This document shows, in pieces, positions 22,283 to 62,493 of a stretch of 64,000 bases of DNA. Each line of letters starts with the position of its first letter. Position 1 is the stretch's first letter. Below the pieces are notes generated by a model that saw only the letters and a list, made by a program, of their open reading frames with translations, was not told where the DNA came from and searched no databases. The stretch comes from Candidatus Limnocylindrales bacterium (GTDB taxonomy: Bacteria; Moduliflexota; Moduliflexia; Moduliflexales; JAUQPW01), in assembly GCA_035559535.1 (NCBI GenBank), contig DATMBG010000045.1:1-64000 (forward strand), written 5' to 3'. The position numbers were made by a program, and so were the translations under genes.

Positions 22283-23260
22283 ATGGATATTTCGGTTATT
22301 TGCCCGTTTTACAATGAAGTAGAAATTATTGAGCAGGCTATCCAGCAACTCCTGGATCAACTCAAACTATTGGACGGAGAATGGGAGTTGATCCTTGTTA
22401 ATGATGGCTCCACGGACAATTCAGGTCAGATTGCCCAACAAATCGCCAAAGATTGCCCGAATTTGCGTGTACTGGGTTATCCTTATAACCGCGGTCGTGG
22501 TTATGCCTTGCGAACGGGAATTGCAGCAGCCCGGGGTAACATTATCATAACCACCGAAATAGACCTGTCCTGGGGTGAAACCATCATCCAGGATCTCATC
22601 GGAGCAATGCGGAAATGGCCGGATGCCGACATGATTGTGGCCAGCCCGAATTTACCAGGAGGCGGTTATAAGAATGTTCCTTTTAAACGGGTATGGCTCA
22701 GTCGGGTCGGTAATCGCATCATCCGAGCTTGTATGGCCAATGCCGCCACTATGAATACGGGTATGACCCGTGCCTATCGCCGGGAAGCAATCCAATCCCT
22801 GCCGCTCTATGAAGATGGTAAAGAATTCCATCTGGAAGTCATGTTGAAAGCAATTGCATTTGGGTTTAAAATTCGGGAGATACCGGCCATCCTGGAATGG
22901 AAGGAATATAAGTATCGGGGTCGGCGTATTGAGCGGAAGAGTTCCTCAAAAGTAAACAAACTGATCGTCTCCCATAGCCTGTTTAGTGTTCTCGCCAATC
23001 CTGTACGATATGTCTGGGCCATGAGTTTAATCTCTATGCTCTTGGGAATTATCTCCTTTATCGGTGCTGTGATTCTCTTCTATTTGAAGATGGTATCGGC
23101 CTATACAGCTCTGATGAGCTTCTCTCTTATGATTCTGGCCATTCTCTTATTCGTTCTGGGGGTTGTGGTCAAACAAGGCAATATGATTCAACGCGAACTC
23201 TGGATATTACAGCGTTACCAGCTCAGTCTCCTTCATGACCGGGATAAGGACCCTGTTTGA
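22283..23260 (+). CDS. GT2 glycosyltransferase, polyprenyl-phosphate sugar synthase type (DPM1/GtrB-like)
   Basis: A 325-residue protein: GT-A domain with ICPFYNE, VNDGSTDNS near residue 44 and an EIDLSWGE motif in the DXD position near 94, then two membrane helices in the last 85 residues. This layout fits enzymes that move a sugar from a nucleotide to polyprenyl phosphate. The gene precedes two large GT39-type enzymes that would use such carriers. The DXD aspartate pair is E-I-D here, a mild deviation. Confidence 0.85.
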   Translation: MDISVICPFYNEVEIIEQAIQQLLDQLKLLDGEWELILVNDGSTDNSGQIAQQIAKDCPNLRVLGYPYNRGRGYALRTGIAAARGNIIITTEIDLSWGETIIQDLIGAMRKWPDADMIVASPNLPGGGYKNVPFKRVWLSRVGNRIIRACMANAATMNTGMTRAYRREAIQSLPLYEDGKEFHLEVMLKAIAFGFKIREIPAILEWKEYKYRGRRIERKSSSKVNKLIVSHSLFSVLANPVRYVWAMSLISMLLGIISFIGAVILFYLKMVSAYTALMSFSLMILAILLFVLGVVVKQGNMIQRELWILQRYQLSLLHDRDKDPV

Positions 23261-23343
23261 GACGCGGAGTTCTGAGACACGGGGATACGGGGAATTCTGT
23301 CTCCGCGTCTCAGCTATAACCCTTCGTGGATAACCCAAATCAA

Positions 23344-23392: not shown

Positions 23393-26362
23393 ATGGATCG
23401 TTATTTGCTTCTGATCGCCGTTTTGGCCTTGATACTCTATTTACCAGGTGTCTGGTGGGGCGCACCCCATGCCACGGGGCCGGATCGAGTACACTCCTGG
23501 GGGGTGGACGATGAAACACCTTTAGGTCCCCTTGCAGAGGTTCATAATATTATTCGGCCCAAGCCTGATCGTAACCTCGGCTATCCCCTGATGTACTCTT
23601 TCTTGGTTGTAATCGCCTACTCACCCTATCTCCTTTATCTAGGGCTGACAAATAAACTCACCACCCTTACGGCCGTATATCCTTATGGTTTGTCAGACCC
23701 CATAAGCACTTTGAAGATACTCAGTGGGATTGCCCATTTTGTTTCGATGTTAATGGGTGTCGGAACGGTTGTAGCAGCCTATGATATAGGTCGTACAGTA
23801 TGGGATCGGCGGGTAGGGGTTCTTGCCGCCTTATTCGCTATGACAGTATTTCCCATGTTTTACTATGCTCGCACCGGTAACGTGGACGTACCGACCTTGT
23901 TTTTCATTGCACTGGCTACGGCGGCCTTTACCCGATGCCTTATCTATGGCCTTACGGTTCGGCGAGCCATAAGCCTGGGTATTTTTGTTGGCTTTGCTCT
24001 GGGGACCAAAGAATCCGCAGCCGGAGCCTTTCTGGCAATGCCGCCGGTCCTGTTGCTTCTCCATGGACAAGACGCAAAGAAGTTAGGGGGAGGATGGTCC
24101 TGGGCTTTCTGGAAGGCGCCCCTTGCCGGACTCCTGGCAGCCGTTTTAGCTTTGGGTATTGGAAGTGGTCTTTTTGTAGATCCGGAACGATACTTTGCAC
24201 ATGTAAAGTATCTTAATAAACGTGTGGAAGACCTTTCCACGGGAGACCATCCGGTCGCTCTCACCTACCCTTATACCCTGGAAGGAAATCTCCAATACGC
24301 CAGGCAGATGGGTAAATACCTCGTCGATATCATGACACTACCCGGGCTTGTATTGGCTACTTTGAGCGTCTTATGGGTTCTAGGACGTGAGCCGAAGGCT
24401 GCCTTGCTGGCTTTACCGGCCTGTTCCTACCTGCTTTTTATGTTCCTGTCAGTACGATCGGCCCAGATGCGTTATTTACTACCTATGGGATTTTTACTGG
24501 CTTTTTTCCCGGCGCGAACGGTGGTACACACCTGGAATTCTTCATCGCCTGTGACCCGACTGATCTTTACGCTCTTTGCAGGAGGAATTCTCTTCACAGG
24601 ACTTCTACGAGGAATAGAATTGACCTATGAAATGATCTATGATTCCCGTTATGCGGCAGGAGCATGGTTAGAGTCACGTACAGAACCCGGCGATCTTATC
24701 CATTACTTTGGATCCTCTCAAAAGAATCCCCCCCTCAAACCCGGAGTTATCATGAAGGCGGCCATCGGCTACTATGGCATGGATGTACGACCCCGGGTTG
24801 ACGAAAAAGCCGTACAGGAGATCCTCCAGGAGTGGAAAGAAAAAAGACCCAAGTTCATTATCATAATGCCAGACCATACGAGTCCACCGGGAGTTCCTTA
24901 TAGTCATACCTGTCCTCCTCAAATTTACGAAGGCTTGCTCAACGGTACCCTGGGTTATCAACAGGTCGCTTATTTCCAGACCCCGCCTTTGTTCCCATGG
25001 CTCCACCGACCTCCCCTGGATTATCCCACAGTCAACCCACCCATCCGTATTTTTCTTCGGGAAGATACAGATCATACCATTAAGTTAAATCCAACCGTAA
25101 CCTACCAAACCATCACAGGTTGGGAAGTCACAACGATTAAATCGGGTTTCTTCATACCCCATAGTCCGATGCATAAATATAAAGACAGGATATATGATCT
25201 GGCTGTCAATGAATTGGGCATTAACCGCGTGCGCTTAGAGATAACCAGCGGGCTTGAAAATCCTGTAGATTATGGGGCCGAACACGTAGCCGGACGTATG
25301 TCTTATAAAGACTGGGCAAAGGTCCGTTATCAGGTCATAAATGATAACGAGGATCCCTTTGTCATTAACCCAAACGGATTTCATTTCACGGAATTAGATG
25401 CCCGGGTGGATAATATGGTGCTTCCTCTAAAACAGAGGTTAGAAGACAGGGGAGAAAAACTCTACATTAATCTTACCTATGTTGACTTCGGACCTTCCAA
25501 ATTTAAACATAAAGATTTTCCGGAAGAATATGCCGAATTTATCTTAGCAACCTTTTTGCATCTTCAGGATAAATACGGCTGGGTACCCGATGCCGTAGAA
25601 GTAACCCTGGAACCTGAAAACTCTCACTGGTCTGGAAAACAAATAGGTCAGGCCATGGTAGCGGCAGGTAATCGCCTTAAAGCTTATGGTTTCCATCCTA
25701 AATTCATTGCTCCCTCAAATACCAATATGGCAAAGGCCATTACCTGGTTCGATGAAATGATGCGCGTGCCTGGGGTCCGGGCTTATTTATCTGAGTTTTC
25801 CTATCATCGCTACGGTGGCGTGTCAGATACCAATCTTTATACCATCGCCGGCAGAGCAGAACAATATAAGATTAATACCGCCATGCTGGAACATATTGGA
25901 AGCGGATACGAGGATCTTCATAAAGATCTAAAAATAGGAAGAAATTCAGCCTGGGGCCAATATACCTTAGCGGGACCCGGCGAAGATGCCGGAGGCCGTT
26001 ATTTTTGGGTTGATACGAGCAATCCCGATCATCCCATTGTAAATCTGGGAAGCCGGGCCAGGTTCTTGCGCCAGTATTTTAAATATATTCGAAGCGGTGC
26101 CGTGAGAATACAGGCAACAACTTACAGCAACATCTTCGATCCCCTGGCTTTTATTAATACCGATGGTAAATATGTAGTAGTGGTTAAAGCCACCGCCGGA
26201 GGTTCTTTTTCTATTCAAGGGTTGCCCGCCGGTACTTATGGCATTAAGTATACCACTTTCAATCAGTATGATGTAGACTGGCCCGATACTACCATTACAG
26301 ATAATCAAACGGTTCAGGCAAGTATTCCTGAACCCGGGGTCATCACCGTATATGCCAAATAA
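23393..26362 (+). CDS. Fusion of GT39-type membrane glycosyltransferase with extracytoplasmic glycoside-hydrolase-like (clan GH-A, GH30/GH39-type) domain
   Basis: A 989-residue protein. Residues 1-430 hold about ten membrane segments with D39-D40-E41 in the first outer loop (WGVDDETP), as in PMT/ArnT enzymes; 430-560 is the soluble tail usual for that family. From about 565 a new domain begins with TYQTITGWEVT, which resembles the opening strand of GH30-type barrels. It continues with VEVTLEPEN, where E740 occupies the acid/base position (family form NEP), YLSEFSYHRYGG, and AMLEHIGSG, where E833 is a candidate nucleophile. The last 90 residues look like a beta sandwich. The barrel would face outside the membrane. 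Both glutamates are present, so hydrolase or transglycosidase activity is possible. The family assignment of the second domain is by motif only. Confidence 0.8.
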   Translation: MDRYLLLIAVLALILYLPGVWWGAPHATGPDRVHSWGVDDETPLGPLAEVHNIIRPKPDRNLGYPLMYSFLVVIAYSPYLLYLGLTNKLTTLTAVYPYGLSDPISTLKILSGIAHFVSMLMGVGTVVAAYDIGRTVWDRRVGVLAALFAMTVFPMFYYARTGNVDVPTLFFIALATAAFTRCLIYGLTVRRAISLGIFVGFALGTKESAAGAFLAMPPVLLLLHGQDAKKLGGGWSWAFWKAPLAGLLAAVLALGIGSGLFVDPERYFAHVKYLNKRVEDLSTGDHPVALTYPYTLEGNLQYARQMGKYLVDIMTLPGLVLATLSVLWVLGREPKAALLALPACSYLLFMFLSVRSAQMRYLLPMGFLLAFFPARTVVHTWNSSSPVTRLIFTLFAGGILFTGLLRGIELTYEMIYDSRYAAGAWLESRTEPGDLIHYFGSSQKNPPLKPGVIMKAAIGYYGMDVRPRVDEKAVQEILQEWKEKRPKFIIIMPDHTSPPGVPYSHTCPPQIYEGLLNGTLGYQQVAYFQTPPLFPWLHRPPLDYPTVNPPIRIFLREDTDHTIKLNPTVTYQTITGWEVTTIKSGFFIPHSPMHKYKDRIYDLAVNELGINRVRLEITSGLENPVDYGAEHVAGRMSYKDWAKVRYQVINDNEDPFVINPNGFHFTELDARVDNMVLPLKQRLEDRGEKLYINLTYVDFGPSKFKHKDFPEEYAEFILATFLHLQDKYGWVPDAVEVTLEPENSHWSGKQIGQAMVAAGNRLKAYGFHPKFIAPSNTNMAKAITWFDEMMRVPGVRAYLSEFSYHRYGGVSDTNLYTIAGRAEQYKINTAMLEHIGSGYEDLHKDLKIGRNSAWGQYTLAGPGEDAGGRYFWVDTSNPDHPIVNLGSRARFLRQYFKYIRSGAVRIQATTYSNIFDPLAFINTDGKYVVVVKATAGGSFSIQGLPAGTYGIKYTTFNQYDVDWPDTTITDNQTVQASIPEPGVITVYAK

Positions 26363-26452: not shown

Positions 26453-27925
26453 ATGAAAAGTAAACAACCGATCATGGCAAAGTCCGGTGTTATCGTAATT
26501 CTTCTCACGTTGATAGGTCTGACATTACGCTTCATAAACCTGAATCAGGGACTCTGGTATGATGAAATCATAGCTCTGGTCCGGTTTATCCGGTTACCTC
26601 TGCGAGATCTTCTAACCACGTATACTTCAGAAAATCAACACATGCTTTACTCGGTACTCGCCCATCTCTCCATTGTAGAGTTTGGTGAACATATCTGGTC
26701 TCTTCGCTTACCGGCAGTTGTTTTTGGGGTTGCCAGTATCCCGGCACTTTATCTTTTGGGAAAAACCATAACCAGCAGATGGGAAGCCTTACTGGCCACC
26801 GCCCTGATGACGGTTTCTTATCACCATGTCTGGTTTTCCCAAAATGCACGGGGATATACAGGACTTCTTTTCTGGACTCTCGTGGGTACTTATCTTTTCC
26901 TTCGAGGTTTGCAACAGAATCGGATCAACCTCTGGATCGGATATGGGATAGCCATGGCCTTGGGAATTTATACGCATCTCACCATGGTTTTTGTACTCCT
27001 GAGTCATGCCATTGTTTTCGTTTGGCAGCTTTACTCCGATAAGAATAAAGGGGAACTGGTAAAGACCGATTTGAAAATGCCCTTAATAGGATTTGGTTTA
27101 ACCGGACTCTTCACAGCACTCCTGTATGCACCGATTTTACCTCAAATGGTTGCCCATTTTGGAGGTGGTGGAACCATTCCATCTCAGTGGACAGAGGTTT
27201 TTTGGGCTATATCCGAAGCAATTCGTGGTTTAAAAGTTGGTTTTGCCAAAGGAGTTCTGGGGGTTTTAGGACTCTTAGTAGCCGGTTTTTTCTTTACTTG
27301 TGGGCTTTGGAGTTATGCAAAAGAGAATCGAAAGGTATTTGCCCTGCTGGTTCTTCCAGGGCTTCTGGGGGCTGTTCCGCTAACACTCCTGGAGCATAAC
27401 ATCTGGCCGCGATTCTTTTTTTACACTCTGGGCTTTATCCTTCTTATCGCCGTTCGTGGAGCCATGGTCGTGGGGAAATTAATCGCGGGACTACAGGTCG
27501 GTCAGAATAGTGAAATTTATGGCATGAAAATTGGATCAACCATCATTGGTCTTCTCATCGGGTTATCCCTAGCTTCATTACCCTTTGCCTATCAATATCC
27601 CAAACAGGATTATGAAGGAGCCATGAACTTTGTCGAGAAAGTAAGAAAGCCTTCGGATCTCGTGGTAACGGTGGGATTAGCCGCCGTTGTATATGAGGAG
27701 TATTATAAAAAAAATTGGGAAGTCATTACCACCGTCGAGCAGCTAAATCAAATTCGCGCACAGGCCCCGGAGACGTGGTTAATTTATGCCTTTCCCATCT
27801 TTGTAGAATCTCGATACCCCGAAGTTATGGCCGCCATTTTTAAAGATTTCACCCCGGTTAAAATATTTCCGGGTACCCTGGGAGGGGGGGAAATTTACGT
27901 TTGCAAATCCAATAAGGCTAGCTAA
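26453..27925 (+). CDS. GT39-type membrane glycosyltransferase
   Basis: A 490-residue polytopic protein with the classic PMT/ArnT first-loop motif LWYDE (D37-E38), about ten hydrophobic segments and a short soluble tail. Such enzymes attach sugars from polyprenyl phosphate to protein, lipid or glycan acceptors on the outer face of the membrane. The start at 26453 gives a short basic leader before helix 1; the in-frame ATG at 26474 is possible. It sits 90 bases after the fusion gene. Confidence 0.85.
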   Translation: MKSKQPIMAKSGVIVILLTLIGLTLRFINLNQGLWYDEIIALVRFIRLPLRDLLTTYTSENQHMLYSVLAHLSIVEFGEHIWSLRLPAVVFGVASIPALYLLGKTITSRWEALLATALMTVSYHHVWFSQNARGYTGLLFWTLVGTYLFLRGLQQNRINLWIGYGIAMALGIYTHLTMVFVLLSHAIVFVWQLYSDKNKGELVKTDLKMPLIGFGLTGLFTALLYAPILPQMVAHFGGGGTIPSQWTEVFWAISEAIRGLKVGFAKGVLGVLGLLVAGFFFTCGLWSYAKENRKVFALLVLPGLLGAVPLTLLEHNIWPRFFFYTLGFILLIAVRGAMVVGKLIAGLQVGQNSEIYGMKIGSTIIGLLIGLSLASLPFAYQYPKQDYEGAMNFVEKVRKPSDLVVTVGLAAVVYEEYYKKNWEVITTVEQLNQIRAQAPETWLIYAFPIFVESRYPEVMAAIFKDFTPVKIFPGTLGGGEIYVCKSNKAS

Positions 27926-28006
27926 AGTATTTTAAGTGTACTAAAGTGCCTGAAGTTAAAGAAACTTCCAAGGCTTTGGCTCATTCAGGCACTTTAATTT
28001 ACCTTT

Positions 28007-28035
28007 GTAGGGGCACGGCGGCGCCGTGCTCCTAC
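28007..28035. repeat. Family B palindromic repeat (GTAGGGGCACGGCGGCGCCGTGCTCCTAC)
   Basis: A 29-base palindrome of the family B form, ten bases upstream of the ATG at 28045. An in-frame GTG at 27946 would make translation pass through this repeat and give a composition unlike GT2 N-termini. This is the main reason for choosing the later start of the next gene. Confidence 0.8.
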
Positions 28036-28044
28036 TCCATAATT

Positions 28045-28950
28045 ATGCAAGAAGATTCTCTGAAAAGTAAAAATTCTGATCAGGAAGCTACGGTCTGTAT
28101 TGTGATTCCTGCTTATAATGAGGAGAAAGCGATTGCAGAGCAGATTCAGAAAGTTCGGTCTGTTATGGGCCAGACAGACTGGCATTACCAGATTATTGTC
28201 GTGGATGATGGATCAACGGATCGTACGGCAGAGGAAGCAAGCAAGTACGAGGTACAACTGATTCGACTTCCCAGGAACCGAGGGTATGGGGCTGCGCTTA
28301 AGGCTGGTATTTCGGCTGCCAGGTCCGATTATATTGTTATTATCGATGCAGATGGTACTTATCCCGCCGAGGCGATTCCGGAACTCCTGGCCAAGGTTCC
28401 CGAATATGATATGGTCGTTGGAGCAAGGATAGGCCCCAATGCCCAGATCCCCTCCCTTCGAAAACCGGCTAAATGGTTCCTGACAAAACTGGCCAGTTAT
28501 TTGGCGGAACAACCTATACCCGATCTTAATTCAGGTCTGCGGGTTATGAAGAAGGCCGTAGTAGAGCAGTTTTATTACATCTTGCCCTCGGGTTTTTCGT
28601 TTACAACCACCATTACCCTGGCTCTTCTCTGTAATGATTACCTGGTATACTACCACCCCATTGAATATTATCGCCGGGTCGGACAATCCAAGATCCGACC
28701 CGTCGATACATACCACTTTTCACTTCTTATCGTACGAACCATTGTTTATTTCAATCCCTTACGGGTCTTTCTACCCCTGGGCTTGATACTTTTTTTGATC
28801 GGAGTTGCCAAGTTTATTTATGATCTGTTTCTTGAAAATCTATCTGAAACGGCTGTAACAGGATTTTTAGGAGCCTTCATTGTTTGGGCCTTAGGCCTTC
28901 TGGCGGATCAAATCGCAAAAGTCGGACTTGGTTCAAGGTTGAAACGATAA
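28045..28950 (+). CDS. GT2 glycosyltransferase, polyprenyl-phosphate sugar synthase type
   Basis: A 301-residue protein if started at the ATG 28045. A GTG at 27946 extends the frame but reads through a palindromic repeat. Motifs: CIVIPAYNEE, VDDGSTDRT, and the metal site IDADGTYP. Two C-terminal membrane helices follow YHPIEYYRRVG, as in DPM1-like synthases. It is followed after 8 bases by a UPF0104 protein and then a flavoprotein, mirroring the set at 1034-5616. Confidence 0.85.
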   Translation: MQEDSLKSKNSDQEATVCIVIPAYNEEKAIAEQIQKVRSVMGQTDWHYQIIVVDDGSTDRTAEEASKYEVQLIRLPRNRGYGAALKAGISAARSDYIVIIDADGTYPAEAIPELLAKVPEYDMVVGARIGPNAQIPSLRKPAKWFLTKLASYLAEQPIPDLNSGLRVMKKAVVEQFYYILPSGFSFTTTITLALLCNDYLVYYHPIEYYRRVGQSKIRPVDTYHFSLLIVRTIVYFNPLRVFLPLGLILFLIGVAKFIYDLFLENLSETAVTGFLGAFIVWALGLLADQIAKVGLGSRLKR

Positions 28951-45321: not shown

Positions 45322-47169
45322 ATGATCAAAAAAGTTATTGTTATCGGGCTTGATGGGTTTGAACCTAAGATCGTAGAATCCATGCTCGCTGCCGGAGAAT
45401 TACCGAACCTGGAGAAATTAAGAAGTCAAGGGGGGTACTCACGGGTTCGCACGACGTATCCGGCTCAAACGCCTGTAGCGTGGTCCACATTTGCCACCGG
45501 TACCAATCCAGGTGGTCATGGAATCTTTGACTTTGTTCGTCGAGATCCTAAAACTTACCTTCCCAATTTCTCCCTCAATCGATATGAACAGAAAAATGCC
45601 TACTTACCCCCTAAGGTGGTGAACCTGCGACGGGGTGTACCGCTATGGGAGCTCCTGTCGGCAGCCGGGATTCCCTCGATCCTGATACGTTTCCCCTGTA
45701 CGTATCCCCCGGATCATATTCGGGGACGGATGTTGGCAGGCATGGGTGTGCCGGATCTACGAGGCGGATTAGGAACCTCAACGTTTTATACTTCCGCCGA
45801 GAACGTGCAGGCCCAGGAAAGTGAGAATGTAATAAAAGTCCAGAGGAATGGAACCGGTCCCTTGACCACCTATCTTATAGGACCCCGTAACCCCAAAACC
45901 CGGTCAAACTTTCAGTTCGAAATCACCATCCGTCTCGAACCCTCTGCAAAGAAGATTATCCTTCAATCCGAGGGACAACCAAAAATACTGGAGGTCTATG
46001 AAGGAAAATGGAGTGATTGGCTTAAAGTAAAGTTCAAAACCGGGTTATTGCAGGGGATACGGGGTATGGTTCGTTTTTATTTGATTCACATAGACCCGGT
46101 GTTTGAACTCTATGCTTCACCGGTCAACTTCGACCCGGAAGGACCCTTATTCCCCATCAGTTCTCCTCCCGAGTATGCCAGGGAGTTGGCCAACAGGTTG
46201 GGAACGTTCTATACTACCGGAATGGTGGAAGATCATGGAGGATTAAACAACGGACGCTTTGACGAAATCGCCTACCTGATGCAGTGTGAAGAGGTACTAC
46301 GGGAACGCGAAAAGATGATGCTCTATGAACTGGAGCGTTTGGAAGAAGGATGGTTTTTTTGTTTGTTTGACACCCCTGACCGTGTTCAACACATGTTTTG
46401 GCGATTCAATGAAAGCGGGCATCCGGCTAATCGAAAGGATGTAACGGCTGACATGAAACAGGTCCTCTCGGAGCACTATCGCGCCTGTGACGCCGTGGTT
46501 GGAAAGGCACTCCAATACGTTGATGATCAAACCCTGTTCATCGTACTCAGTGATCACGGTATGAACAGCTTTCAGCGGGGAATTCATCTGAATACCTGGT
46601 TGTATGACCATGGCTTTTTGGCTTTGCGTAATGGAATTAAACCGGGGAAAGAGGCTGGTGATTTCTTCCGTCATGTGGACTGGGATCACACAAAAGCCTA
46701 TGCGCTGGGTCTGGGAGGTATTTACTTGAATCTGAAGGGGCGAGAAGAAAAGGGGATTGTAGAGGCCCAGGAAGCAGATACCGTGAAGTCTGCTATTATC
46801 CAGGGGCTTACGGGCCTGGGAGATCCGGTTCGAGGAAAAGTGGGCATACGGAGTGTTGTAACCCGAGAGCAGGTCTATAGCGGCCCCTATGCTTCGGAAT
46901 CTCCGGATCTTTTGGTTAACTTTGCCGAGGGTTATCGGGTATCCTGGGTTACGGCACTGGGTGGAATACCTGAAGGACATTTCGAAGATAATACAAAAAA
47001 ATGGGGAGGAGATCATATTATCGATCCCTGTCTGGTTCCTGGGGTATTGTTTATGAACCGGGCGTTTCGTGGGGAAAATGCAAGTCTCATGGATCTGGCT
47101 CCCACCATCCTTGCAGCCTTGGGAGTTCCCAAAGGCCCGGCCATGGAAGGAGAATCTCTGTTGATATGA
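45322..47169 (+). CDS. Alkaline-phosphatase-superfamily phosphodiesterase (NPP-like), complete active site
   Basis: A 615-residue type I phosphodiesterase/nucleotide pyrophosphatase relative without signal peptide. Metal and nucleophile positions are intact: D11 in VIGLDGFEP, T50 in TYPAQTPVAWSTFATG, D-x3-H in DTPDRVQHMFW, D-H in LSDHGMNSF, and the third-histidine region in GGDHIIDP. It should cleave phosphate mono- or diesters; proteins of this type in glycan loci have no settled substrate. Its stop overlaps the start of a paralogue by 4 bases. Confidence 0.87.
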   Translation: MIKKVIVIGLDGFEPKIVESMLAAGELPNLEKLRSQGGYSRVRTTYPAQTPVAWSTFATGTNPGGHGIFDFVRRDPKTYLPNFSLNRYEQKNAYLPPKVVNLRRGVPLWELLSAAGIPSILIRFPCTYPPDHIRGRMLAGMGVPDLRGGLGTSTFYTSAENVQAQESENVIKVQRNGTGPLTTYLIGPRNPKTRSNFQFEITIRLEPSAKKIILQSEGQPKILEVYEGKWSDWLKVKFKTGLLQGIRGMVRFYLIHIDPVFELYASPVNFDPEGPLFPISSPPEYARELANRLGTFYTTGMVEDHGGLNNGRFDEIAYLMQCEEVLREREKMMLYELERLEEGWFFCLFDTPDRVQHMFWRFNESGHPANRKDVTADMKQVLSEHYRACDAVVGKALQYVDDQTLFIVLSDHGMNSFQRGIHLNTWLYDHGFLALRNGIKPGKEAGDFFRHVDWDHTKAYALGLGGIYLNLKGREEKGIVEAQEADTVKSAIIQGLTGLGDPVRGKVGIRSVVTREQVYSGPYASESPDLLVNFAEGYRVSWVTALGGIPEGHFEDNTKKWGGDHIIDPCLVPGVLFMNRAFRGENASLMDLAPTILAALGVPKGPAMEGESLLI

Positions 47170-48623
47170 AAATTTTAGTTATCGGCCTCGATGGGGCTAC
47201 CCCTGAAGTGTTATTCGGAGATGAACGCCTGGATAATTTCCGTCGTTTAATGGAAGCGGGCTGTTATGGTCGCCTGGAGACTGTTATTCCACCCCATAGA
47301 ATCCCGGCCTGGATGTGTATGGCTACCGGCCAGGACCCCGGCTCGTTGGGAACCTGGGGGCTTCAGAAGCCTACCGATAGCTCTCCTAATAATCTGGAAC
47401 CCGTTACCTCAAAACCCATATCGGAACCTTCCATCTGGAACCAGATAGCCCGGGAGGGGAAGCGAACCTGCCTTATCGGAGTACCCCTATGGGATCCACC
47501 CCAAGAGGGAAAGGGTGTTTGGGTAAGTTGTCCTTTACCCCATAAGGGGATTTATACCTATCCGGCGTCGGTAAACGAGCAGATTAGAAAACTGATAGGC
47601 TCCTATCCGGCGGATGTTAAACATTCTCGTTTTTATAAAAAAGACCAGCTCCTGGAGGAGATTTACACCATGAGTCGCAAACATTTCCAGGTGGTCCGAT
47701 ACTTTTTGCAGAACACAGATTGGGATTATTTTCAATGGGTCGAGATCGGACCGGACCGTTTGCAGCATGGTTTTTGGAGATTCCATGATCCACAACCTCC
47801 GCTCCATGAGCCGGGTAATCCCTATCAGGAAGTCATTCGTGATTACTATCTTTACCTGGATCACGAACTGGGAGCCATCCTGGATCTCCTGAGTGAGGAT
47901 ACCCTCATTTTGGTGATTTCGTGTTATGGTGTAAAACGGCTGGAGGGTGGCTTCTGTCTGAATGAGTGGTTGGTAAGGGAAGGCTTACTTGTGCTCAATG
48001 AATATCCCCAAGAGATTACCGCCTTTAACCAGCTCAGTGTGAATTGGGAAAAGACCCTGGTTTGTGGTGAGGGGGGGTATGCGGCAGGTTTATTCTTTAA
48101 CGTAAAAGGACGGGAACCTCGGGGGACTCTCTCCGAAGCGAATTATGAGAAATTCCGGGATGAAATCAGGAGGAAACTCAAAGCTATCTCAAACGACCAG
48201 GGTAAATCCCTGGAAGCAGTTGTCCTTAAGCCGGAAGAGATTTACACAAAGGTAAGGCCTGGAGTTCCTGACCTGTTGGTTCAGTTTGGTGGCTTTTCCT
48301 GGCGTGTGGTGGACAGTGTAGGACACCAGACCCTTTACCTTCAAGGCAATGATCCCCATCTGGATGACTGTAATCATGGGCAATTTGGGAGCTTTATTTT
48401 AGTAGCACCAGATAATCCTCTCCAGGGTGAAATTGAGAAAGTACGCTTACCAGATATGGCACCAACCCTGTTAGAGTTGGGAGGATATTCTGTGCCTTCC
48501 TCCATGCAGGGAAAATCTCTGCGGGCCAATAAGGTATCTAACGCAATAACTGACGAAGGTTTTTCAGCCGAGGAGGAAGAGATCATTCGGGAACGGTTAA
48601 GTGGATTGGGTTACATTGGATAA
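47166..48623 (+). CDS. Alkaline-phosphatase-superfamily protein, probable pseudoenzyme
   Basis: A 485-residue paralogue of the preceding protein. The ATG at 47166 overlaps the upstream stop (ATGA); an earlier in-frame start at 47001 would run 169 bases into that gene and is rejected. D9 in VIGLDGATP, PDRLQHGFW and a CNHGQF histidine are kept. But the nucleophile stretch TPVAW has become RIPAW (threonine lost), and the metal pair LSDHGM has become ISCYGV (both ligands lost). Two metals and the nucleophile cannot be in place, so it is probably non-catalytic: a partner, a sensor or a binding protein for the first enzyme. The open frame and codon use look normal. Confidence 0.85.
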   Translation: MKILVIGLDGATPEVLFGDERLDNFRRLMEAGCYGRLETVIPPHRIPAWMCMATGQDPGSLGTWGLQKPTDSSPNNLEPVTSKPISEPSIWNQIAREGKRTCLIGVPLWDPPQEGKGVWVSCPLPHKGIYTYPASVNEQIRKLIGSYPADVKHSRFYKKDQLLEEIYTMSRKHFQVVRYFLQNTDWDYFQWVEIGPDRLQHGFWRFHDPQPPLHEPGNPYQEVIRDYYLYLDHELGAILDLLSEDTLILVISCYGVKRLEGGFCLNEWLVREGLLVLNEYPQEITAFNQLSVNWEKTLVCGEGGYAAGLFFNVKGREPRGTLSEANYEKFRDEIRRKLKAISNDQGKSLEAVVLKPEEIYTKVRPGVPDLLVQFGGFSWRVVDSVGHQTLYLQGNDPHLDDCNHGQFGSFILVAPDNPLQGEIEKVRLPDMAPTLLELGGYSVPSSMQGKSLRANKVSNAITDEGFSAEEEEIIRERLSGLGYIG

Positions 48624-48672
48624 ATCCATCGGGAAAAATCTTCCTCGGGTCTTACAGGAGACAGATCATAGG

Positions 48673-50493
48673 ATGATGACTCAAGAGAAGAAATCGGTTC
48701 TATCTACCCCCTCTATAGCGCCCGGCAAACTTTTACTTTTGGCAGCCTGGTTTGCATTGGCTACCGGTTTGGGAGAGATTTCGATCCGGGCGGTTCAGAA
48801 ATTCTTCCTGCACCAGCGTATCTACGTAAGCCCACAGGTCGTCTGGATGGCTCCTCTGGCCGATCTGGTTCTCTTTCTACTTTCGGGATCCATCCTCCTC
48901 CTTGTGGCCCGGTTCTGGCCCAGGGCAACCTCTCCGAAGATTGTTGTTTTTATCTTTGCCCTTCTCGGTTTTTCAGGCCCATTGTTATGGTTCCCGAAAC
49001 TGCATATCCTTGCGGCTCTTCTGCTGGCCATCGGCCTTTCTGTGCAAACGGCTCGTCTCCTTGAAAAACATATCTCGACCTTTTACCTCTTCAGCCGGTA
49101 CACCCTGGGAGGAATGTTGGCTGTCGTAATGGCATTGGCCGTTGGTATCAATGAGTGGCAGGTCTTAATAGAGCGTAATGCCCTGGCAAAACTCCCCCCG
49201 GCTCCTCCAGGTACTCCCAATGTCTTATTGATTGTATTGGACACCGTAAGGGCCTCAAGTCTCAGTCTATATGGTTATAATCGACCTACGACCCCCTCCT
49301 TAGAGAAGTTGGCCAAAACCGGTGTGGTCTTTGAAAAGGCCTTTGCAACTTCATCCTGGACCCTTCCTTCCCATGCCAGCCTGTTCACGGCCCGTTATCC
49401 CCATGAGGTTTCGGCAGACTGGCTGAAACCCCTGGATGCGACTTACCCTGTATTGGCTGAAGTTTTCCAGACTTATGGATATGTTACCGCCGGGTTTGTT
49501 GCCAACCTGTTGTATGGAACCTACGAGACGGGCCTTGCCCGCGGCTTTATTCACTACGAAGATTATCCTATATCTCCGGAGATGGTTATTAAGAGTTCGT
49601 GGCTGGCCCGGATCTTTGTAGACAAGCTGAAATTGATCAAAGGAGATACCGATAAACTCGTCTATAAATGGGCCGAAGAAATCAATGAAGATTTTCTGTC
49701 CTGGCTTTCCTGCCATAATTCACGACCCTTTTTCGTCTTTCTCAACTACATGGATGCCCACGCACCCTATCTGCCCCCTAAACCCTTTGATACCCTGTTT
49801 GGACCTAAAAGGCCTCGACCGGATAAATCGGTACGGAGAACCTGGTCTCCTCAGGAGATCCAGGTGGAGAGGGATGCCTATGAGGGTTGTATCGCTTATC
49901 TGGACCATCAACTGGGCTTACTCTTCGACGAATTGCAAAAACGGGGGATACTGGAAAACACTTTAATCGTTATTACCTCCGATCACGGGGAGCAGTTCGG
50001 AGAGCATGGTCTCTTTGATCACGGTAATAGCCTCTACCGGCCGTCGTTACAGGTTCCTCTATTTATTTCCTTCCCGGGACGTGTACCGGCCGGAAGGCGT
50101 GTTCATGAGGCCGTAACCCTGCGGGATATTCCGGCTACTATCCTGGACCTGGTCAAACCGGAAGCCAGCTCTCGCTTTCCCGGACATTCATTGGCTCGAT
50201 ATTGGAAGGGAACCGATAATTCCCACAGTTCCTCTTCTGCTTTACTTTCTGAAATCAGTAAATGCATTAACATGCCCGCATGGCTGCCGGCCTGTAAAGG
50301 AGATATGAAATCACTGGTGACCGATGGTATGCACTATATCAGGAACGGAGATGGTCGTGAAGAACTTTATGATCTTGAAAACGATCCGGCAGAAGAACAA
50401 GATCTTGCTAATTCTGAAGAAGGCCGTCAAAGGCTTGAGGAATTCAGAAGATCCCTTGAAACTATTCTCAGGTCTGACCGATTCCAGAGATAG
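48673..50493 (+). CDS. Sulfatase-family membrane protein without formylglycine motif (paralogue 1)
   Basis: A 606-residue protein from ATG 48673 (AGGAG 11-15 bases upstream); the frame is open back to a GTG at 48601 inside the previous gene. The first 170 residues have four membrane helices; then a sulfatase fold begins with NVLLIVLDTVRA. The place of the formylglycine cysteine or serine is T in WTLPSHASLFTARYP (codon 49360-49362), and the CxPxR arginine is H. Metal ligands remain in ITSDHGEQFGEHG and DHGNSLY. It is therefore more like a phosphodiesterase or phosphotransferase than a true sulfatase. The catalytic domain should lie outside the membrane. Confidence 0.83.
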   Translation: MMTQEKKSVLSTPSIAPGKLLLLAAWFALATGLGEISIRAVQKFFLHQRIYVSPQVVWMAPLADLVLFLLSGSILLLVARFWPRATSPKIVVFIFALLGFSGPLLWFPKLHILAALLLAIGLSVQTARLLEKHISTFYLFSRYTLGGMLAVVMALAVGINEWQVLIERNALAKLPPAPPGTPNVLLIVLDTVRASSLSLYGYNRPTTPSLEKLAKTGVVFEKAFATSSWTLPSHASLFTARYPHEVSADWLKPLDATYPVLAEVFQTYGYVTAGFVANLLYGTYETGLARGFIHYEDYPISPEMVIKSSWLARIFVDKLKLIKGDTDKLVYKWAEEINEDFLSWLSCHNSRPFFVFLNYMDAHAPYLPPKPFDTLFGPKRPRPDKSVRRTWSPQEIQVERDAYEGCIAYLDHQLGLLFDELQKRGILENTLIVITSDHGEQFGEHGLFDHGNSLYRPSLQVPLFISFPGRVPAGRRVHEAVTLRDIPATILDLVKPEASSRFPGHSLARYWKGTDNSHSSSSALLSEISKCINMPAWLPACKGDMKSLVTDGMHYIRNGDGREELYDLENDPAEEQDLANSEEGRQRLEEFRRSLETILRSDRFQR

Positions 50494-50514
50494 GGAGGCG
50501 GAGATACGGAGAAG

Positions 50515-50608
50515 TATGGGAGTATGGGAGTATGGGAGTATGGGAGAATTTACACCCACACTTCCACACTCCCATACTTAAGAACACACTCCCATACCCC
50601 CATACTTA
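50515..50608. repeat. Family C repeat
   Basis: GGGAGTATGGGAGTATGGGA units followed by CACTCCCATACTTAAGAACA and CACTCCCATACCCCCATACT. It ends about ten bases before the GTG start of the next gene, so any original ribosome site there has been replaced by repeat sequence. Confidence 0.82.
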
Positions 50609-50617
50609 AATGCCCCC

Positions 50618-52444
50618 GTGTTAGGATTTTCACTATTGATAGCCATCTGGTTTGGGCTCCTTACCGGTCTACTGGAGGTCGTCCTGCGAACGGTTCAAGG
50701 GTTCTATGTAAGTCGGACCCGGGAAGTAAGTCATGATTTTATCTGGATGTGCCCCCTGGCTAACGCTGGGATCCTTTTTCTCCTGGGACTGGTCATTTTT
50801 TTTGTTAGTCGGTTCTGGCCAAAGCTCAATCTCCTACGTCTTACCATTTTTTTATCCGCACTCTGGGGTTTTATGGACCTGATCATTCTCTACCCAAAGA
50901 TTCATCATTACGCAGCCTTATTGCTTGCTGCGGGTCTGGCTACGCAAACTTTACGCCTGATCTCCCCCCATATGCTTTCTTTTCAGAAGTTAGTTCGTCG
51001 GACCCTACCCTGGATGGGATTGCTGGTCGGAATGCTGGCAATAAGTGTCCAGGGAAAACAGATCCTTGCGGAACGGAGGGCTCTTGCCGATCTGACCCCT
51101 GCTCCTCCCTATGCGCCTAATGTGCTATTCATTACCCTGGATACCGTTCGGGCCAGGAATTTGAGCGTTTATGGTTACTCCCGACCCACTACGCCTCAGT
51201 TGGAGCAGTTAGCCAAAATGGGAGTGGTCTTCGAACGGGCCTTATCCACAGCCCCGTGGACCCTCCCCTCCCATGCCAGTATGTTCACCGGGCGCTTTCC
51301 CGGGGAATTATCTGCCGATTGGTTAACGCCGCTGGATTCAACCTATCCTACCCTGGCCGAATTCTTTAGGGCACGGGGGTATTTGACGGCGGGATTTGTA
51401 GGTAATACCGGCTATTGTAGCTATGAACACGGCCTTGATCGTGGTTTTATACACTATGAAGACTACCGAATATCTCTGGGGCAAACTGTCGCCAGCTCCA
51501 TGTTGACACGAACCATTGCAGATAACTTTAGACTCCGTAGAATTCTTCGTAATGATGAACACCTGAATCGCCAACCGGCCGATCAGATAAATGAGAAGGT
51601 GTTACGTTGGTTTTCCCATAAAGAGCAACGACCCTTTTTCGTGTTCATTAATTATTATGATGCCCATGAACCCTATCTCCCCCCTCCACCCTATGATAAG
51701 ATGTTCGGACCGGGACGGAAGTACGGAAAGTTTAGTCCGTTACATCGTCATAATTGGGAACCTGCGGTCATGCATCGGAAATTATCTCCAGAAGAGGTCC
51801 AGGAAGAAATAGATGCCTATGACGGGGCCATCGCTTACATAGATCATCAGCTTGGGCAGCTTCTCAATGAACTCGGGAGAAAAGGACTGTTGGAGAATAC
51901 GTTGATAATTATTACCTCGGATCACGGTGAAGAATTTGGGGAACATGGGATTTTCGACCACGGCAACAGTCTCTATCTCCCGACGGTGCATGTACCTTTA
52001 CTCATCGTCTTTCCATCCAAAGTGCCTGCAGGCAAGCGTATCCATGAACCGGTTTCCCTTCGGGATCTCGCGGCCACCGTCGTGGACCTGACCAGACTCG
52101 GCGGAGACCCTCACTTCCCGGGTAAATCCCTGGCACGATACTGGAATATGCCAGCTCAAGCTCCCGGCTTAGAGGAAACTCCCCTACTCTCTGAGGTATC
52201 TCGGGTGACCGGTCGTCCGACCTGGTTTCCGGTTAGCCGGGGAGATGTGAAAGCCCTGATATTTAATGGAATGCGCTACATTAAGAATGGGGATGGGGTG
52301 GAAGAACTTTACGATTTTGAAAATGATCCCTGGGAACAACGAAACCTGGCCAACCTGGAAGAGAGTTCCCAAATCCTTAACCAGTTTAGAGCCCTTCTGG
52401 AGAAGATTCTTAAATCCGAAGCCCGAAGTCAGAATTCCGGATGA
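50618..52444 (+). CDS. Sulfatase-family membrane protein without formylglycine motif (paralogue 2)
   Basis: A 608-residue protein clearly duplicated from the previous one: the same four N-terminal helices, VLFITLDTVRARNLSVYGYS, WTLPSHASMFTGRFP (threonine codon 51260-51262), ITSDHGEEFGEHG and the same C-terminal YIKNGDGVEELYDFENDP. The only in-frame start near the expected N-terminus is GTG at 50618, directly after a family C repeat and without a ribosome site. The N-terminus aligns about 20 residues into paralogue 1, so a few leading residues were probably lost or rewritten by the repeat. Confidence 0.8.
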   Translation: MLGFSLLIAIWFGLLTGLLEVVLRTVQGFYVSRTREVSHDFIWMCPLANAGILFLLGLVIFFVSRFWPKLNLLRLTIFLSALWGFMDLIILYPKIHHYAALLLAAGLATQTLRLISPHMLSFQKLVRRTLPWMGLLVGMLAISVQGKQILAERRALADLTPAPPYAPNVLFITLDTVRARNLSVYGYSRPTTPQLEQLAKMGVVFERALSTAPWTLPSHASMFTGRFPGELSADWLTPLDSTYPTLAEFFRARGYLTAGFVGNTGYCSYEHGLDRGFIHYEDYRISLGQTVASSMLTRTIADNFRLRRILRNDEHLNRQPADQINEKVLRWFSHKEQRPFFVFINYYDAHEPYLPPPPYDKMFGPGRKYGKFSPLHRHNWEPAVMHRKLSPEEVQEEIDAYDGAIAYIDHQLGQLLNELGRKGLLENTLIIITSDHGEEFGEHGIFDHGNSLYLPTVHVPLLIVFPSKVPAGKRIHEPVSLRDLAATVVDLTRLGGDPHFPGKSLARYWNMPAQAPGLEETPLLSEVSRVTGRPTWFPVSRGDVKALIFNGMRYIKNGDGVEELYDFENDPWEQRNLANLEESSQILNQFRALLEKILKSEARSQNSG

Positions 52445-59208: not shown

Positions 59209-62200
59209 ATGCTCTCATTTCCAGAGATTCCTAAAAATTTGGAAGCTTCCCATCAAAATGAAGCCGTCCGGGATTCTTCTCTCCATTTGATGAAGTTTTG
59301 GCTTGCAATTCTTTCAGTCATAGGGGTTTGGCTTGGGATCTTACTTTGGATTCATGCCCATAATCCGCGCCTCCTCCCCTCCTGGCACGGGTTTCTACAT
59401 ACGGCCATTGCCATGCGATTTACAGACGGATCGTTTCCTCCAGAGAATCCCTTCTTTGCCGGTGAAAAACTCCCCTACTACTGGGCATACCAGTACTTCG
59501 GTTTTATAGTAGCCCGAATTTTAAAAACCGATCTCCTTCATGCCTTTCGGTTTATAGCCCTGTCCAGTCTGGCCGTTTTAGTTATTTTCTCCGGATTAAC
59601 CGGATATAAATATTTTCGATCTATCGGAGCCGGCCTTTTGATCGGTTACCTTGCTGTGGCTGGAGCTAATCCCTTCGGACCGCTGATTGCGTTAGCTAAA
59701 CATTGGATAAAAGCTGCTCCTTTGATCAGCCCGGTATCCTCACAAACTCCCGTCGAGACCCTTTTTGTTACGAACCGAATGGCCGATGATTGGATGACCC
59801 AACCCCTCTTACCCGCCCTGTATATCTCCAGTGAATGGTGGCATGGACAGAATATCGTCTGGTTTATAGATATTTCTGCACGGGCTCCCGCTTTATCGTT
59901 GGTTTTTGTACTTCTCTTCCTTCTTTTGAGCCCCCGGCTAAAATTTGGAAAAATACTCCTTATAACTTTACTGGCCGCTCTTATAACGGCTTTTAACCCC
60001 ATCACCGGATTTGTAGTGTCTGGAAGCCTTCTGGGGGCCTCTCTGATAATACTCTGTCTGACGGCTTTAAAGCGTTCCCACTTCGGTTACAAGTTTAAAA
60101 AGCAGCCCCTCGTCCTGTCCCTCCTCTGCCTTACAGGTACCCTTCTGGCTGCACCTACCTACTATCATTTGTTTCTCCTTAACAAGGGAACTCTAAGCCT
60201 GACCTCTTCTTACTCTGTTTTTTATCTCTTTTTAAAATTGGCTGCCCTCTCGGCCAATTTTTTGATCCTGGTTTCCCTGGCGATTCTGGGTAGCTGGAAA
60301 TCATCTTATCGAGAAGGAATAGGACTCTGGACCCTGACCCTGGCCGGAATTCTTCTGTTACTTGTCGTTCCCCTTATTATTCTCTGGCCTCACAACGAGC
60401 ATAACCTGACCAACGCTGCCGCATGTCTCCTTGCCGTTCCGGCAGTTGCCTGGATAACCTGCCTGCCCAAGCGAAAAGAAGAAAGGATTTCTAAAGGATC
60501 TCTTTTTCTTTTACTCCTGGGGGTTCTCTTTCTACCTACAACCTTCTGTACCCTTCTTTCCTACACCGGAAGGCCCCCTCTTCCCCTTGGATTTCGGGGT
60601 CAAACCCTGCAGAGACTACCCGAAGAGGGTCCCCTCGAAAATTTATATGCCTGGATAAGGAATCAAACCCCTTCCGATGCCGTATTCCTTTGTGATCCCA
60701 ATGAACCTGTTAAAATGTCTGGAAACGTAGCCGAACTTCCGGCCTTTACCGCGAGAACTCTTTTCATAGATCTCCCCGGCTATCTTACTTCTCAGTACAA
60801 AGATGCGAACTTCAGGACTACGCTGGCCGGCAATGCAGCAAAGGGCTACCCTTTGACACCTCCTCAACGTAATTATCTCCGTCATCTGCAAAGACCTCTT
60901 TACCTGATTACCTATCATGCCGACCAGGAAGATCTTTTGAATCGGCTGATTCAACAAAACGGTGGGCCTATCTTTCGTCAAGATTTTGTAGCCGTGTTCA
61001 AAATCACCCTGGATCCGATAGAATTTCAACCTTCCAAGGCAGGATTTCAACCTTTGCAGTTTGATTTAGCTTTCTCGACCTATCTGGGAGGTTCACAATT
61101 TGAACACATCCGTGGGATTACTACAGATAGCTCCGGTAACATATATGTTACCGGTGGTACAACTTCCCCGGACTTTCCGGTTACAAACGGTGTCTATCAG
61201 ACCACCCTTAATCCTGCTAAACCAGATTCCCCCGATATTTCGCCCATGGATGTTTTCGTAACCAAATTAGATCCCGGCGGCAAAATCATCTGGTCTACTT
61301 TCCTGGGTGGCCCCAATTACGATCGAGCTTATGCCATTGCGGTAGATAACCAAGACTATGTCTATGTAGCAGGTCGGGCCGGTAAAGGTTTTCCGGTTAC
61401 CCGGGGAGCCTTTCAAACGTCCTTTCAAGGGGGGCAAGAAGCGCCTTTTTATGGCCCTCAAGATGGTTTCATCTGTAAACTGACTCCTGATGGTTCTAAA
61501 CTTGTTTTCTGCAGTTACTTTGGAACCCCAGACCCTTCCATTATTCGAGATATAGCGGTTGATCCAAAGGGAGATATTTACCTGGCATCGGGTTATTCCT
61601 CAGGCCGTTATCCTAAAGAAGTTCACAAGGTCTTTAATAATAAGCCCCATGGGGATCATGATGCTGTTATAGCCAAGATCCATTCCGATGGCTCCCGGGT
61701 ACTCTGGGCTACCTATCTGGGAGGTTCGGATTGGGAGAGTAACGAGAACTCTGTCCGTTTGGATGGAGCCGGGAATCCCTATGTTCTGTTAACAACCAGG
61801 TCGACCGATATGCCGGTCACCGAGAACGCCTATGGAAAGACGTATGCCGGCCATGGGGATCTCTATGTGGCGAAACTCACACCCGATGAAGGGAAATTAG
61901 TCTGGGGTACCTACCTGGGGGGACCTGAAAACGAATCCACCGAAACCCATGAATTCGCCGTAGATGCTGAAGGTAATGCTTACATTGCAGCTCCAACCAA
62001 GTCCCCCGACTTTCCCACCACTCCCGGAGCTTTTCAAAGAAAATATGAGGGGGGCCCCAATGAAATATTCGTGGCTAAAATTTCACCAGATGGTTCACAA
62101 CTTTTGGCCAGTACTCTCCTGGGGGGAAAGGATAGAGATAGACCGGAAGGTGTGGCGGTGGATACAGCCGGTAATGTCTACTTTACCGGTACAACCACCT

Positions 62201-62493
62201 CCAATAACTTTCCGGTAACAAGGGATGCTTTTCAACCTAATTTAATAGGAGACCGAAATGCCTTTGCGGTAGTGCTTTCCGCAGATTTCAGTCGGTTGCT
62301 CTACGCCACCTACCTGGGAGGCGGCGGAGGAGAATTGGGTCGAGCGGCCACGGTGGATTCCCATGGTAATTTCTATATAGCCGGTCAAACAGATTCAAAG
62401 AACTGGCCGGTCCATAACGCTTTTCAGCCTGCTTACAGTGGTAACATAGATGGATTTATAGCCGGATTTAAACCAAACACTCAGAAAAACTAA
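59209..62493 (+). CDS. Membrane GT-C/DUF2298-like protein fused to SBBP-repeat beta-propeller
   Basis: A 1094-residue protein. Residues 30-470 have about ten to eleven membrane helices; the first outer loop FPPENPFFAGEKLPYYWAYQ (76-95) is the type found in DUF2298-like GT-C proteins. A soluble region at 470-615 follows. From residue 622 there are seven repeats of about 60-80 residues starting FSTYLGG, WSTFLGG, FCSYFGT, WATYLGG, WGTYLGG, ASTLLGG and YATYLGG, each followed by a DxxGNxYVxG-type strand: SBBP repeats, which form a seven-bladed propeller. It is probably outside the cytoplasm, where it could bind the glycan product. No ribosome site is obvious; the ATG at 59290 is a possible alternative start. 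Confidence 0.83.
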   Translation: MLSFPEIPKNLEASHQNEAVRDSSLHLMKFWLAILSVIGVWLGILLWIHAHNPRLLPSWHGFLHTAIAMRFTDGSFPPENPFFAGEKLPYYWAYQYFGFIVARILKTDLLHAFRFIALSSLAVLVIFSGLTGYKYFRSIGAGLLIGYLAVAGANPFGPLIALAKHWIKAAPLISPVSSQTPVETLFVTNRMADDWMTQPLLPALYISSEWWHGQNIVWFIDISARAPALSLVFVLLFLLLSPRLKFGKILLITLLAALITAFNPITGFVVSGSLLGASLIILCLTALKRSHFGYKFKKQPLVLSLLCLTGTLLAAPTYYHLFLLNKGTLSLTSSYSVFYLFLKLAALSANFLILVSLAILGSWKSSYREGIGLWTLTLAGILLLLVVPLIILWPHNEHNLTNAAACLLAVPAVAWITCLPKRKEERISKGSLFLLLLGVLFLPTTFCTLLSYTGRPPLPLGFRGQTLQRLPEEGPLENLYAWIRNQTPSDAVFLCDPNEPVKMSGNVAELPAFTARTLFIDLPGYLTSQYKDANFRTTLAGNAAKGYPLTPPQRNYLRHLQRPLYLITYHADQEDLLNRLIQQNGGPIFRQDFVAVFKITLDPIEFQPSKAGFQPLQFDLAFSTYLGGSQFEHIRGITTDSSGNIYVTGGTTSPDFPVTNGVYQTTLNPAKPDSPDISPMDVFVTKLDPGGKIIWSTFLGGPNYDRAYAIAVDNQDYVYVAGRAGKGFPVTRGAFQTSFQGGQEAPFYGPQDGFICKLTPDGSKLVFCSYFGTPDPSIIRDIAVDPKGDIYLASGYSSGRYPKEVHKVFNNKPHGDHDAVIAKIHSDGSRVLWATYLGGSDWESNENSVRLDGAGNPYVLLTTRSTDMPVTENAYGKTYAGHGDLYVAKLTPDEGKLVWGTYLGGPENESTETHEFAVDAEGNAYIAAPTKSPDFPTTPGAFQRKYEGGPNEIFVAKISPDGSQLLASTLLGGKDRDRPEGVAVDTAGNVYFTGTTTSNNFPVTRDAFQPNLIGDRNAFAVVLSADFSRLLYATYLGGGGGELGRAATVDSHGNFYIAGQTDSKNWPVHNAFQPAYSGNIDGFIAGFKPNTQKN

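Follow-up and report, generated by a model that had tools for sequence, protein, structure and literature searches.

A predicted GT-C glycosyltransferase with a GH30-like domain at its C-terminus in a polysaccharide-synthesis locus of a Moduliflexota bacterium

The window analyzed here, a stretch of 64,000 nucleotides from contig DATMBG010000045.1, contains an open reading frame that almost certainly encodes a GT-C glycosyltransferase carrying a C-terminal GH30-type domain (Table 1). The frame starts with ATG and comprises 989 codons with zero internal stops on the forward strand, exactly as located, sized, and framed in the initial annotation; residues D39, D40, E41, E740, and E833 also lie at the positions given there. 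The GT-C/PMT_2 glycosyltransferase occupies residues 1 to approximately 560 and is followed by a predicted GH30-type barrel and β-sandwich (residues ~561–989). The proposed union of a GT-C enzyme and a clan GH-A barrel on a single chain is thus supported, by the Pfam PMT_2 match and by GH30 kinship.

Table 1. Features of the fusion gene and its neighbors (window coordinates).
Feature	Coordinates	Strand	Basis
Complete fusion gene, 989 aa + stop	23393..26362	+	Reading frame; counterpart L008:3511-6480
GT-C membrane domain, residues 1–408, ~11 TM segments and a juxtamembrane helix	23393..24616	+	PMT_2 at residues 115–224
D39-D40, conserved acidic motif, first extracytoplasmic loop	23507..23512	+	GT homologue alignment
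D165, invariant among aligned GT homologues	23885..23887	+	Alignment
K206, invariant among aligned GT homologues	24008..24010	+	Alignment
Soluble C-terminal part of GT, residues 409–560	24617..25072	+	Unfused homologues stop shortly past matching NPPIRIFLRED
GH30-like domain, residues 561–989, predicted (β/α)8 barrel and β-sandwich, without own signal peptide	25073..26359	+	Sequence kinship and predicted fold
GH30 β-sandwich signature PF17189, residues 902–931	26096..26185	+	Pfam
F699, aligned with conserved β3 Trp of the −1 subsite	25487..25489	+	Alignment
L739, replaces Asn preceding the acid/base of other GH30 enzymes	25607..25609	+	Alignment
E740, aligned with GH30 acid/base Glu, directly after predicted β4	25610..25612	+	Alignment, model
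E833, aligned with GH30 nucleophile Glu, inside predicted β7	25889..25891	+	Alignment, model
Y857, aligned with conserved β8 Trp platform of the −1 subsite	25961..25963	+	Alignment
Upstream GT2, resembles polyprenyl-phosphate sugar transferases (PgfS, ArnC)	22283..23260	+	Profile matches
Second PMT_2 glycosyltransferase, downstream, unfused	26453..27925	+	Pfam
Second GT2, hydrophobic C-terminal end	27946..28950	+	ORF and Pfam

The upstream GT2 probably makes a polyprenyl-phosphate sugar donor. The genes around the fusion further encode an LPG_synthase_TM-type membrane protein, a Wzx-like Polysacc_synt protein, a polysaccharide deacetylase, an NDP-sugar epimerase, an asparagine-synthase-like protein, and FAD enzymes. 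On this gene content, we regard the region as a surface polysaccharide or exopolysaccharide locus. The combination of GT2 and GT-C fits the three-component scheme of extracytoplasmic glycosylation (PMC11127046), for which the donor flippase in the locus is only a tentative assignment. Three other features of the window were observed: (i) an intergenic inverted repeat, tgagacgcggag...ctccgcgtctca (23257–23315, by eye), lies just upstream of the fusion gene and may be a terminator or a mobile repeat; (ii) a 1094-aa protein (59209–62493, + strand) with a multi-TM N-terminal half (weak DUF2298) and subsequent SBBP β-propeller repeats (E 3.9e-37) gives the window another membrane protein that carries an exported domain; and (iii) four consecutive phosphodiesterase/sulfatase-like proteins, two of them with N-terminal TM segments, lie at 45322–52444 (by eye).

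The N-terminal half combines multiple TM helices with a PMT_2 profile match (PF13231, E 2.3e-9) that exceeds the curated Pfam cut-off. The family-level match is to this general model only, which spans several CAZy families, so that the GT39 label given at first is one candidate beside GT83 and others; no NCBIfam equivalog came close to its cut-off for the GT half, and a search of PDB sequences returned no relative of it. In an alignment of seven GT sequences, D165 and K206 are invariant, as is D39 in all six sequences covering that position, whereas position 40 holds D, E, or G. The motif conserved in the GT-only homologues reads W-x-x-D39-[D/E/G]40, so that D39-D40 of the originally proposed D39-D40-E41 loop motif is conserved but E41 is not. 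Our topology model, with 11 TM helices and residues 66–84 as a juxtamembrane helix, places the DD loop and the C-terminal 581 residues outside. The density of Lys and Arg (0.19 in inner loops versus 0.11 in outer loops) lends modest support to this hand-made model, in which export of the C-terminal half, as first suggested, is the most consistent predicted topology. The protein resembles PMT_2/ArnT-type GT-Cs in the acidic motif of the first outer loop, D165, K206, and the soluble C-terminal domain, and differs from them by approximately 430 additional residues, which form the GH30-like domain.

Unfused GT-C proteins from a different phylum align to residues 7–561 with 31–33% identity and stop shortly past the counterpart of YPTVNPPIRIFLRED, and the fusion protein continues straight into HTIKLNPTVTYQTITGW after the GT segment. 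This latter segment can be aligned with the beginning of the mature GH30 domain in a secreted paralogue from the same genome (L002:1063-2811, G000:C47), whose N-terminus consists of a signal peptide followed by VEILLDNTMTYQIMEGFG. The homologue ends and the paralogue alignment together indicate a complete GT-C and a complete GH30-type domain joined with almost no linker; the GH half presumably lost its signal peptide at the fusion event. No GH30-type gene was found within 6–15 kb around the GT-only homologues of the other phylum in a Rosetta-stone test.

The assembly that contains the window is a draft in 58 contigs, and the homologues from another phylum are unfused; both points would favor an assembly or annotation artefact in which a sequencing error joined two genes. 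We rejected such an artefact, whose probability we consider negligible, because a second species of the same genus carries the identical 989-residue fusion (JAUQPW010000039.1, L008; ~96–97% identity) in an independently assembled genome and in the same gene order, flanked by the same GT2 and PMT_2 genes; the lack of a signal peptide on the GH half also speaks against it. Pairwise dN/dS between the two genes was 0.13 over the full length; the GT half gave 0.167 and the GH half 0.085, with the barrel at 0.062. Constraint on the GH half is thus no weaker than on the GT half.

The C-terminal domain, initially described as clan GH-A-like, falls in GH30 according to three lines of evidence: (i) the β-sandwich signature PF17189 scored 22.7 bits against a cut-off of 22, Pfam giving no match on the barrel part, which is too diverged; (ii) phmmer against PDB sequences returned the GH30 xylanase 1NOF (E 2.5e-4) and also BT3312 (5NGK); and (iii) profile–profile comparison of the fused domain alone with GH30 relatives gave 96.8% and E 2.3e-10, the match covering the second half of the barrel and the sandwich (13 aligned relatives, one of which, L014, was read in the wrong frame). 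Kinship was thereby found over both barrel and sandwich. That this kinship exceeds chance is further supported by the secreted paralogue, which is 27–30% identical and retains NEP and TE motifs. Phylogenetically, the fused domain sits on a very long branch among GH30 relatives with a weakly supported placement; therefore, we claim no GH30 subfamily. A UDP-glucose-dehydrogenase-like gene lies downstream of the paralogue, of which Pfam detects mainly the sandwich and which may represent a new GH30 branch.

A single-sequence AF2 model of the domain was poor (pLDDT 43); all 8 of its Foldseek hits in the PDB at E<1e-3 were nevertheless GH30 enzymes, with low TM-scores. A model built with six aligned sequences reached a pLDDT of 55, which is low confidence, and a pTM of 0.56. 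Its predicted strands (local residues 20–24, 56–62, 135–141, 178–182, 243–251, 272–279, and 295–300) and the order of its strands and helices fit a (β/α)8 barrel with a short β5. The top 25 PDB hits of this model were all GH30 enzymes (TM ~0.53–0.60), followed by PslG, a match that is partly circular because four of the six rows of the alignment were GH30 domains from viral contigs. In this model, E740 (local residue 184) lies just past β4 and E833 (local residue 277) lies within β7.

A strand-by-strand alignment places E740 on the acid/base of the QNEP motif and E833 on the nucleophile of the TE motif, so that the two glutamates first singled out as candidates correspond to the GH30 catalytic pair at the predicted ends of β4 and β7. 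The GH30 residues R614 (β2) and H805-x-Y807 (β6) are also retained. By contrast, the Asn before the acid/base and the Trp residues of the −1 subsite are replaced by L739, F699, and Y857, and the Thr before the nucleophile by L832. In BT3312, the corresponding Asn237, Trp179, and Trp377 touch the −1 sugar at O2, O3, and its ring face (PMC5481569). As judged from the sequence, the site keeps the proposed catalytic pair with an altered −1 subsite; the retained Glu pair counts for little as evidence here, since only two near-identical fusion sequences are known. The domain shares with the GH30 enzymes BT3312 (5NGK), XynA (1NOF), and glucocerebrosidase (1OGS) a predicted barrel with a β-sandwich and two Glu aligned to the ends of β4 and β7, and differs from them in its identity of approximately 20% or less, in the replaced Asn, β3 Trp, and β8 Trp, in the attached GT-C, and in having no signal peptide. 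Because kinship and the catalytic pair are present, the conserved Asn and Trp of the −1 subsite are replaced, and catalysis is only predicted, we call the domain GH30-like.

These features are compatible with a membrane-tethered glycan-processing domain that acts on the polymer decorated by the GT-C half, a reading that we favor, with a probability of about one half. The upstream GT2 would synthesize a polyprenyl-phosphate sugar, which would then be flipped; the GT-C half would move this sugar onto a surface polysaccharide or exopolysaccharide under assembly outside the membrane; and the GH30-like half, positioned next to the transferase, would process the same polymer by retaining chemistry, with E740 as acid/base and E833 as nucleophile, through trimming, release, or transglycosylation. 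We infer the exported location, the sugar donor, the catalysis, and the shared substrate. The processing reading is favored by the conserved fusion with a GT-C that ends at the junction, GH30 kinship, the GH30 hits of both AF2 models, the alignment of both Glu, the retention of R614, H805, and Y807, the lower dN/dS of the barrel relative to the GT half (0.062 versus 0.167), the polysaccharide-synthesis locus, and the precedents of GT2-GH17 synthases, PslG, and three-component GT-C systems. Against it stand the Asn-to-Leu change and the change of two active-site Trp to Phe/Tyr, the pLDDT of 55 with its partly circular fold match, the existence of only two near-identical fusion sequences, and the non-catalytic sugar-binding domains on other GT-Cs of this genome. 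A more specific proposal, a two-step extracytoplasmic editor that adds a sugar from polyprenyl phosphate and also transglycosylates or cuts the same polymer via its altered −1 subsite, appears rather unlikely.

The Asn that contacts O2 and two Trp of the −1 subsite are missing, as would fit a catalytically dead or repurposed module. Such a module would bind glycan and hold or position the acceptor polymer for the transferase, as in mycobacterial EmbC, a GT-C with an exported carbohydrate-interacting C-terminal domain; that carbohydrate-binding module is a lectin-like β-sandwich (PMC3044687), whereas the fused domain has a predicted glycosidase fold. Sugar-binding domains recur on GT-Cs of this genome and order (GH2 sugar-binding/rhamnosidase-N in L056; PA14 in L059 and L065). 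Both catalytic Glu, R614, and H805-x-Y807 have been kept despite the divergence of most other positions, and the barrel is under strong purifying selection, which argue for catalysis instead. We consider a binding module, the main rival to glycan processing, possible, and somewhat improbable on balance.

Several GT-Cs of this group carry additional domains. Genomes of the genus contain 26–29 PMT_2 matches each (29 in the window's genome), and the extra domains on GT-Cs of the genus and order are of the GH2 sugar-binding/rhamnosidase-N, PA14, AglB-type, and PAP2 kinds. The fusions L056, L059, and L061 (G000) and L065 (G003) carry GH2 sugar-binding/rhamnosidase-N, PA14, or PAP2 phosphatase domains. 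Because several of these extra domains are of the binding type, the non-catalytic alternative stays alive. Across 385 genomes from 327 genera, the GH30 sandwich (PF17189) occurred in 21, and among the long frames inspected it was found within a GT-C only in the two genomes of the window's genus; the other frames below ~700 aa were too short for such a fusion or not individually inspected. None of four other long GH30 frames that were checked had a multi-TM half: three have a signal-like N-terminal hydrophobic stretch (L068 with two further weak windows near residues 572–598), and L066 has no such stretch and an N-terminal part resembling a non-coding frame. The search for the same fusion elsewhere, which had been suggested at the outset, returned only the congener from genome contigs, and the fusion was not found in the viral contigs or plasmids searched. 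GH30 domains do occur in long proteins of four predicted phage contigs (L030, L031, L032, and L052), and that of L032 adjoins a protein whose end is lysozyme- and peptidase-like, an arrangement suggestive of virion tail depolymerases.

Most GH30 enzymes are secreted hydrolases of polysaccharides, and the paralogue carries a signal peptide. The fused domain might by the same token be a degradative glycosidase that uses the GT-C merely as a membrane anchor, the halves acting on unrelated glycans. We think this improbable: the gene lies within a polysaccharide-synthesis locus and not a utilization locus, and an entire GT-C that retains its conserved residues would be expensive as an anchor.

For glycan processing beside the transferase, there are relatives in logic. 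The GT2-GH17 "Orphan"/NdvB-type glucan synthases of pseudomonads (PMC10237404), including Glt1, Glt3, and Glt7 (PMC11005184), likewise combine a membrane glycosyltransferase with an extracytoplasmic clan GH-A domain on one chain, and their GH17 domain remodels the polymer. They differ in that GT2 is a cytoplasmic sugar-nucleotide-dependent synthase and GH17 is N-terminal, whereas in the fusion the GT-C active site is predicted to be outside and the GH30-type domain is C-terminal; Pfam finds PMT_2 and GH30 domains in place of GT2 and GH17. The open-licence literature searched held no description of a GT-C/GH30 or GT39/GH30 fusion. The original remark that no enzyme with this pairing had been described therefore stands in that literature as far as GT-C and GH30 are concerned, and GT2-GH17 proteins (PMC10237404, PMC11005184) provide a described case of the same logic. 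PslG (5BX9), which ranks just below GH30 in the fold search, is similarly an inner-membrane GH-A glycosidase serving polysaccharide synthesis, and both its hydrolase activity and its inner-membrane location matter for Psl synthesis (PMC6813494); it is a separate protein of another GH family. By analogy, the fusion would resemble the GT2-GH17 synthases and PslG in having an extracytoplasmic glycosidase where the polymer is made; it is a member of neither group.

Glycosidases are frequent in polysaccharide-synthesis loci, where their roles are unclear. The covalent link between GT-C and GH30-type domain names the glycosidase's partner transferase; therefore, the effect of a biosynthetic glycosidase on its own polymer becomes testable. 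GT-C with GH30 would be a second fold pair beside GT2-GH17. If the editor proposal were true, the fusion would represent an undescribed GT-C-coupled remodeling or length-control step and a GH30 branch of new specificity.
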